From: Pseudanabaena sp. PCC 7367
Lineage (GTDB): Bacteria; Cyanobacteriota; Cyanobacteriia; Pseudanabaenales; Pseudanabaenaceae
Length of the DNA: 64,000 nt
NCBI RefSeq assembly: GCF_000317065.1
Contig: NC_019701.1
Coordinates: 868,001 to 932,000, forward strand
Direction: 5' to 3'
Position numbers and translations under genes: made by a program
Notes under the pieces: model-generated
The model's input: only the letters and a program-made list of their open reading frames with translations
What the model was told of the DNA's origin: nothing
Databases searched by the model: none
Part shown: positions 38,384 through 40,898 of the stretch, one piece after another
Layout of the letters: the number at the start of each line of letters is the position of its first letter
How positions within the stretch are numbered: the first letter of the stretch is position 1

Positions 38384-38605
38384 ATGAGCAACATCCAAAA
38401 CAAAATCCAAGAAGAACTCGAAAGCGCCAGGGAAGCCTGTGATACCACTGGTGCTGATTCTAAAGAATGTGCAGCCGCCTGGGATGCCGTGGAAGAGCTT
38501 CAAGCTGAAGCCTCTCACCAACGTGAAGAAAAGCCCAAGAATTCTCTTGAGCAATTCTGCGACGATAATCCCGATGCTGCCGAGTGCCGTGTGTATGATG
38601 ACTAG
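38384..38605 (+). CDS. cp12: CP12, redox regulator of the Calvin cycle
   Basis: It has 73 residues. CP12 is an intrinsically disordered protein that binds GAPDH and phosphoribulokinase in the dark. The AWDAVEEL motif (32-39) and both Cys pairs (Cys19/Cys29 and Cys59/Cys68) are present. The C-terminus (ECRVYDD) docks into GAPDH. A 7-bp hairpin (38601-38617, ACTAGTT/AACTAGT) overlaps the stop codon. An ATG at 38439 in another frame is a shadow. Confidence 0.96.
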   Translation: MSNIQNKIQEELESAREACDTTGADSKECAAAWDAVEELQAEASHQREEKPKNSLEQFCDDNPDAAECRVYDD

Positions 38606-40008: not shown

Positions 40009-40278
40009 TTATAATTTTCTAATTTCCTGATCGTATTGCTCATGTGAACCAATCCAATACCAAGATATGCCATCCGATCCTAATTCTCCCAAAGCGCGAA
40101 ATTTGCGACCGATCCGAATAGAATAAATTTGTTTTTCTTTATGAACTTGCTTAAACCTAAGACTTTTATGGCGAGGATCCTTTTGCCAGAGTAGATAGTT
40201 TTTTCGAGCAAGATCTTGAACTGGTTTAGGAAGTTGAGCAAGGAGATCACGGAAAGCCTGGTTTGTTCTAGATTTCAT
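40009..40278 (-). CDS. RelE/ParE-superfamily toxin (mRNA interferase-like)
   Basis: It has 89 residues from ATG 40278 (MKSRTNQAFRDLLAQLPKPV). FRDLLAQLPKPVQDLARKNY, HKSLRFKQVHKEKQIYSIRI and GRKFRALGEL, ending in SWYWIGSHEQYDQEI, fit the cyanobacterial RelE/ParE-type (HigB/YoeB-related) toxin. The ATG overlaps the stop of the upstream gene as ATGA (4 bases), so the two are translationally coupled with the antitoxin first, as usual for type II modules. A start at 40362 would force 84 bases of overlap and is unlikely. Toxin activity (mRNA cleavage or gyrase) is not determined. Confidence 0.85.
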   Translation of the reverse strand: MKSRTNQAFRDLLAQLPKPVQDLARKNYLLWQKDPRHKSLRFKQVHKEKQIYSIRIGRKFRALGELGSDGISWYWIGSHEQYDQEIRKL

Positions 40279-40898
40279 TTGCCAGGTGGAAAAACTTCTT
40301 CTAGCGGCACAGTTCCGTTGATTGCAATATCTCGCCTTCCTGCCTCCAGCATACGATCCCACTGTTCATCAGTTGTATTGGCAAATTTACTTTCCCAGGT
40401 AAATTCATCAATGATTAACTCAAAATAATCTATTATCTCAGCCACTAGGGTGGGGTGATCGCCTTGGTTGGTCTTTTCATTAACTTGGGGAACATGGTGA
40501 TTAAGCAAATCAACGACAACATCTCTGATCGTGCCGATCGCGTTGCGGAGCTGATCAACCGAAACTCCTAGATCCAGATATTTCTCAATGAATCGATCCA
40601 GATAATGTTCTTCAAGTATTGAGGCGCTGCCAGACAGTAGAGAGTAGGTGACATATTGCAGAATACTCTCACCGTCATCCAAGCATAAATTTGTTTCTAT
40701 ATTGGTATGTACACTTTCACCAGCAATCTGATCAATTGCGAGTCGAAGAATTAGATCACTGCTTGTAGAAAGAGACTTTACCGCATCAAGGCGAGCATTT
40801 GCCGTTTGGCTAAGCTCATAGGCACGTTTTATTTCTGATTCATTCAGAAATCTATTCTGCTCTTTTGCAGCAGTAATACTTCGGGTCAAAACGTCCAT
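40275..40898 (-). CDS. Antitoxin with an N-terminal phycobiliprotein domain
   Basis: It has 207 residues. Residues 1-165 align with phycocyanin/allophycocyanin beta subunits: DVLTRSITAAKEQNRFLNE, a helix with NARLDAVKSLS, then CLDDGESILQYVTYSLLSGS, ASILEEHYLDRFIEKYLDLG and AEIIDYFELII. Cys72 matches the bilin-attaching Cys of the AAC(L/I)RD motif, and Asp75 matches its Asp, while Arg is replaced by Asp. The B-E helix loop is about 9 residues shorter than in CpcB, and the second CpcB bilin Cys is a His here (GDHPT). Residues 166-207 (WESKFANTTDEQWDRMLEA and VPLEEVFPPGK) resemble the toxin-wrapping tail of cyanobacterial antitoxins. The toxin gene overlaps by ATGA. I know of no described protein with this architecture. 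Confidence 0.8.
   Translation of the reverse strand: MDVLTRSITAAKEQNRFLNESEIKRAYELSQTANARLDAVKSLSTSSDLILRLAIDQIAGESVHTNIETNLCLDDGESILQYVTYSLLSGSASILEEHYLDRFIEKYLDLGVSVDQLRNAIGTIRDVVVDLLNHHVPQVNEKTNQGDHPTLVAEIIDYFELIIDEFTWESKFANTTDEQWDRMLEAGRRDIAINGTVPLEEVFPPGK

Follow-up and report, generated by a model that had tools for sequence, protein, structure and literature searches.

Elsewhere, phycobiliproteins are known as subunits of the light-harvesting machinery, and the locus studied here raises the question of what such a protein is doing at the front of a gene that runs directly into that of a RelE/ParE-type toxin. The locus lies within the window (the whole stretch of 64,000 nucleotides that was analysed) of Pseudanabaena sp. 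PCC 7367, the genome of which is 4.89 Mb in two contigs and 100% complete. The locus is probably a type II toxin–antitoxin module from a ParE_like family common in cyanobacteria, with the hairpin of the antitoxin swapped for a complete, beta-type phycobiliprotein domain that would act as its head. The features of the locus, in window coordinates, are:

40275..40898, minus strand: 207-aa antitoxin gene, made up of a phycobiliprotein domain and an antitoxin tail (open reading frame, Pfam and structure matches)
40401..40898, minus strand: beta-type phycobiliprotein domain, residues 1–166 (PF00502 match; tree with the plasmid paralogue)
40683..40685, minus strand: codon of Cys72, which is the protein's sole cysteine and aligns with the universal cysteine for bilin attachment (CpcB Cys82)
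40674–40676, minus strand: codon of Asp75, aligned with CpcB Asp85
40389..40412, minus strand: fusion junction IDEFTWES, residues 163–170, 24 nt, where the end of helix H would pass into antitoxin helix 2
40278..40397, minus strand: predicted toxin-binding antitoxin tail, residues 168–207 (about 46–60% identity to the C-terminal halves of standard antitoxins)
40275..40278, minus strand: ATGA, shared by the stop of the antitoxin gene and the start of the toxin gene (read from the sequence)
40009..40278, minus strand: ParE_like toxin gene, 89 aa (PF24732 match)

The layout is that of a type II system, with two small, adjoining and co-directional genes that overlap, the antitoxin first. The 89-aa reading frame matches PF24732 (ParE_like; E 3.7e-12, 46.5 bits against a cut-off of 24.4), retains 26 of the 30 residues that are invariant in the family, and is the sole match to this profile above the cut-off in the whole genome, which makes the fusion protein likely to be its cognate antitoxin. 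The toxicity of the 89-aa protein, and its neutralisation by the fusion, would be expected from the family to which the pair belongs. A 4-nt ATGA overlap is also the commonest arrangement in standard antitoxin–toxin pairs (33 loci, including the window), the toxin start usually lying inside the stop of the antitoxin, as it does here. The preliminary description had called the locus a toxin–antitoxin operon in which the second gene encodes an 89-residue RelE/ParE-type toxin overlapping the first by ATGA, and both statements are supported by the architecture, the ParE_like match and the homology of the tail. A promoter scan gave nothing above chance level. Among the PADLOC defence models none was matched by the antitoxin, and the toxin matched only an unrelated model (E 0.022).

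The front part of the antitoxin is a full phycobiliprotein domain. PF00502 (Phycobilisome) matches residues 7–165 with E 5.3e-28 and covers profile positions 2–154 of 155, the score for the protein being 98.4 bits against a curated cut-off of 22.2. Among solved structures the nearest relatives are phycoerythrin and phycocyanin beta chains, the best match (E 3.7e-18, residues 2–162) being to a beta subunit of phycoerythrin, and the ATG at 40898 aligns with the start of CpcB and CpeB. The allophycocyanin/phycocyanin beta-type domain that had been read from the 207-residue gene is thus real and was correctly placed, and the chance that a profile search would find no significant PF00502 match is disposed of by the score. 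Judged by its profile scores, the domain is a member of the phycobiliprotein family yet no standard subunit, the latter being ruled out because the NCBIfam equivalog models are matched far under their cut-offs: CpcB with 57.3 bits (cut-off 279.3), CpeB with 68.6 (275) and ApcB with 43.2 (228.2). It is like CpcB and CpeB in fold family, full length, and possession of the bilin cysteine and the aspartate that follows, but it is only 28–30% identical to them, has a shortened loop, carries the antitoxin tail, and is without equivalents of Asp13, Arg84 and Arg91.

The tail belongs to a different and widespread protein family. Homologues of the toxin (E 1e-6 or better) are present in 182 of the 390 genomes of the class, and for a subset of them the preceding gene encodes a protein of 75–80 residues with a C-terminal half like that of the window protein. 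To these stand-alone antitoxins, which lie directly 5' of homologous toxins, the window tail is about 46–60% identical, so the earlier recognition of a short tail of the cyanobacterial antitoxin type is upheld. A profile of the tail found this standard antitoxin family, which is unnamed in Pfam, in 67 of the 390 genomes. Its members are about 76 aa long with the layout MTELLQQAIAQIQKLPPDQQDAIAARFLAELQDEQKWETRF..TTDEQWDRMAAMVRQEI..VPLDEVFP, and those with an intact N-terminus all start with some form of MTELLQQAIAQIQKLPPDQQDAIAARFLAELQDEQ (32 loci besides the window). The window protein has their arm, W..RF..TTDEQWDRM...VRQEI...VPLDEVFP, and lacks their N-terminal MTELLQQAIAQIQKLPPDQQDAIAARFLAEL hairpin (MTELLQQ...), the phycobiliprotein domain being found instead. 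Compared with the antitoxin of a standard ParE_like (PF24732) pair, then, it is alike in tail sequence, gene order, ATGA overlap and partner toxin, but has a 166-residue phycobiliprotein domain in the place of the hairpin. The standard family is also found in two Chloroflexi metagenome-assembled genomes, and is therefore not tied to phycobilisomes. The loci concerned (L082, L084, L085) place standard pairs in metagenome-assembled genomes of Anaerolineales and other Chloroflexi, and also in a contig that is labelled Gracilibacteria but is probably cyanobacterial contamination.

Where the exchange took place can be seen by comparison with a predicted structure of a standard antitoxin, for which AlphaFold gave helices at residues 3–13, 17–43, 46–61 and 68–71 (mean pLDDT 82). 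The model of the fusion, built on an eight-row alignment, is poor (mean pLDDT 50.6) and has helices at 148–171, 177–193 and 199–202; a fold search with this low-confidence model is uninformative, although its top matches were phycobiliproteins throughout. From the register of the alignment and this weak model, the window protein retains the half of helix 2 that bears an invariant tryptophan, together with the two later helices, its helix 148–171 being the counterpart of helix 17–43 in the standard model, while the first helix and the front half of the second (about 36 residues) were swapped out at the boundary between hairpin and helix 2. Going by register and low-confidence secondary structure, helix H of the phycobiliprotein would be continuous with antitoxin helix 2. 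A phycobiliprotein has in this way been recruited as an antitoxin head where hairpin and toxin-binding arm meet, which suggests that this widespread family has a portable arm, one that can be joined to a head both large and globular.

In the proposed module the C-terminal arm (W168–K207) would bind and block the toxin in the manner of standard family members, and the phycobiliprotein domain would serve as a folded and probably dimerising head in the hairpin's stead. The stability of this head, or its ligands, could then set the amount of free toxin, because its last helix would run on into the toxin-binding arm; both the dimerisation and a link between the state of the head and the release of the toxin are expectations of this scheme. 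The standard hairpin is probably a dimerisation element, and since the domain replaces it, a role as a stable, dimerising fold, the other reading offered in the preliminary description, has at least as much support as release of the toxin in response to bilin, light or phycobilisome breakdown. It could be that the domain does nothing else, that is, that the fold was exchanged for the hairpin with no signal input and the module works as an addiction element of the usual sort. This is somewhat less likely than not, and it fits both the position of the exchange at the boundary of hairpin and helix 2 and the divergence of the domain (28–30% identity to CpcB/CpeB), in which phycobilisome-specific residues have been lost; the retention of the bilin-site cysteine and aspartate counts against it.

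A comparable system is the IPF_1065/1067 pair of Microcystis, the likeness being drawn from its description, in which the toxin is likewise a cyanobacterial protein of the RelE/ParE type and the ParE/ParD-like antitoxin, a cleavage substrate of the orthocaspase MaOC1, is helical and dimeric (PMC7935541). In the part of that report consulted, no phycobiliprotein domain is mentioned for the pair (PMC7935541).

The same genome holds relatives of both parts of the fusion. It has numerous PF00502 genes, and the one closest to the window domain, with 37% identity over the domain, is a reading frame of 173 codons on the plasmid-sized contig C1 (265.4–265.9 kb). This paralogue retains the bilin-attachment cysteine, has a cysteine in place of the bilin aspartate, and is interrupted by an IS630-like element in the last of its helices, so that any former tail cannot be seen. 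A remnant of the tail, truncated from the 5' side by an element of 247 bp, lies at C1:302.9–303.1 kb. Across the junction, IDEFTWES in the window and IDEFSWES in the remnant, 22 of 24 bases are identical, and because the best of 32 standard antitoxins reaches only 14 of 24, the remnant most likely descends, by this comparison, from a gene that was fused at the same junction. An error of assembly or sequencing that joined two genes, which had been named as one way in which the fusion might be undone, is next to impossible: nothing was seen that favours it, the genome is complete in two contigs, and the error is excluded because a second, independent and diverged copy of the junction exists on another replicon. 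That other copies were broken by transposons agrees with the exchange being a neutral one. The idea that the paralogue and the tail remnant are halves of one gene was dropped, as the two share about two codons of overlap in which their sequences differ, and they sit at what appear to be different TA sites. The 247-bp mobile element (C1 about 302.7–302.9 kb; L078 8692–8938) has 19-nt terminal inverted repeats, TACCCCTAGTTTGTCACAT, and contains a transposase fragment.

On C1 the neighbours of the paralogue and the remnant are CpeA/CpeB-like, CpcA/CpcB-like, linker-like and bilin-reductase-like genes (named by eye and partly backed by profiles). The phycobiliprotein region of this contig also includes a decayed standard antitoxin, MTELLKLAIAQLEQLPPEQQDAIAARLLAAVHDQEQWETHL..., at C1:277617–277850 (plus strand; L125 7617–7850), which has no toxin after it. 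It could in principle also help to neutralise the toxin, though its tail is eroded. Among the phycoerythrin genes of C1 there is, besides, a Uma2-like (DUF820) gene with several similar copies (L076, L125; named by eye).

Both parts of the fusion evolved as constrained proteins long after duplication. Between the window domain and the C1 paralogue dN is 0.54 and dS is 1.98; between the tail and the C1 remnant dN is 0.32 and dS is saturated. In a maximum-likelihood tree the window domain and the C1 paralogue form one clade (support 98/98) on a long branch, near but outside CpcB/CpeB, and the exact placement of this clade is uncertain because the branches are long. The fusion is old, was duplicated once, and has been under selection at the protein level. 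It might nevertheless be decaying or functionless, a chance in-frame join beside a dead toxin, given that it is seen in one genome only and that the plasmid copies are disrupted. This is improbable, as 207 codons have remained open, the toxin holds to its invariant residues (26/30), dN is well below dS, and the junction is old and duplicated. Purifying selection on the domain is compatible with a sensor and with a neutral exchange alike.

Does the domain bind a bilin? Its residues give mixed evidence. Cys72 and Asp75 occupy the positions of the bilin-attachment cysteine and its aspartate, but the propionate-binding arginine is missing: Asp74 stands at CpcB Arg84, an arginine whose equivalent is invariant in 25 of 25 phycobiliproteins compared, and Ile-Glu stands at the Arg77/78 pair. 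The domain keeps 24 of 52 near-invariant columns of beta subunits. Bilin attachment may on these residues be considered possible, short of a confident prediction. Asp13 and Arg91 pair alpha with beta phycobiliprotein subunits; their equivalents, invariant in the sequences compared, are Lys12 and Gln81 in the window domain, and because these pairing residues are lost the domain is unlikely, as far as its residues can tell, to be a phycobilisome rod subunit.

It could be speculated that the domain is the sensor of the module. A bilin bound at Cys72, a phycobilisome partner, or a degradation adaptor of host or phage that recognises the domain would be the input, and loss of the bilin or partner, or loss or degradation of the domain, would destabilise the antitoxin and free the toxin. 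Such a sensor of bilin, light or phycobilisome status would elaborate the proposed module and does not exclude it; it is, however, somewhat unlikely. The protein has a single cysteine among its 207 residues, placed at the universal position for bilin attachment, and the aspartate three residues on is kept. The C1 paralogue, too, retains the cysteine, and both it and the tail remnant sit in the phycoerythrin region of C1, near bilin-reductase-like genes (named by eye). Set against these points are the aspartate at the Arg84 equivalent, the loss of the Arg77/78 pair, the survival of fewer than half of the beta-invariant columns (24/52), and the substitution of the bilin aspartate by cysteine in the paralogue. 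A stable, dimerising fold explains the data equally well as one coupled to bilins or phycobilisomes. If the sensor did prove true, it would to our knowledge be the first light-harvesting protein serving as the signal input of a toxin–antitoxin system; growth arrest would depend on pigment or phycobilisome status, and the module might act as a built-in decoy against phages by which phycobilisomes are dismantled.

The proteolytic adaptor NblA acts on phycobiliproteins, which it delivers to proteolysis (PMC6166021), and cyanophages carry nblA (PMC4103541), so that starvation or infection could in principle remove the antitoxin. The antitoxin would then be a phycobilisome mimic, a decoy or proteolytic trigger that adaptors such as the NblA of host or phage would hand to ClpC, so that the toxin would become free during starvation or phage infection. 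For an antitoxin domain as a signal input there is a precedent in CapRel, where such domains can act as phage sensors (PMC11578894), but CapRel differs from the window module in that its toxin and domains are unrelated, it is a single chain, and what it senses are phage proteins (PMC11578894). The decoy is nonetheless distinctly improbable. In this genome even the best NblA score, 21.7 bits, stays under the Pfam cut-off of 25, the domain is highly diverged for NblA binding, and neither the phage and viral sequence collections, searched for homologues of the fusion, nor the defence library gave a match. Whichever of these applies, the proposed pair of a phycobiliprotein-headed antitoxin and its toxin is a simple system in which it can be tested whether pigment supply or phycobilisome turnover controls a toxin that stops growth.

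The fusion appears to be confined to this genome, a conclusion that is well supported within the 390 sampled genomes of the class and only suggestive beyond them. A two-sequence profile gave 421 and 288 bits on the pair from which it was built and at most 84.5 elsewhere, revealing no other fusion in the 390 genomes. At family level, a protein search of 38 genomes found no relative better than ordinary phycobiliproteins, and a short-peptide pattern scan of 84,980 species, a scan by which distant fusions would be missed, returned standard antitoxins only. Apparent fusions at L081, L084 and L085 (matches to residues 99–204, 127–204 and 131–204) proved to be standard antitoxins whose hairpin happened to align with the domain's final helices, and long, tail-bearing frames in two genomes (G370, G283) are C-terminal extensions of standard antitoxins with no N-terminal fusion. 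In the open-access literature, so far as its texts were accessible, no description of an antitoxin linked with a phycobiliprotein domain was found. What would be new, judging from these comparisons, is the phycobiliprotein-type head on an antitoxin, the toxin family and the antitoxin arm being already standard.

Other diverged phycobiliprotein genes were encountered on contig C2. Two tandem PF00502 proteins of 159 aa each (62 and 58 bits) are encoded near a linker-like gene at about 2499.1–2500.3 kb (L079 2058–2537 and 2883–3362, minus strand) and form a separate, deep clade in the tree. A 154-aa diverged PF00502 protein, at about 1096.5 kb (L080 1869–2333, minus strand), is found in the unusual setting of two V4R-domain-like reading frames, one on either side. 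Within the window itself, positions 38384–38605 (plus strand) hold a reading frame for an acidic protein of 73 aa (MSNIQNKIQEELESAREACDTTGADSKECAAAWDAVEELQAEA...CDDNPDAAECRVYDD) that resembles, by eye only, the Calvin-cycle regulator CP12.
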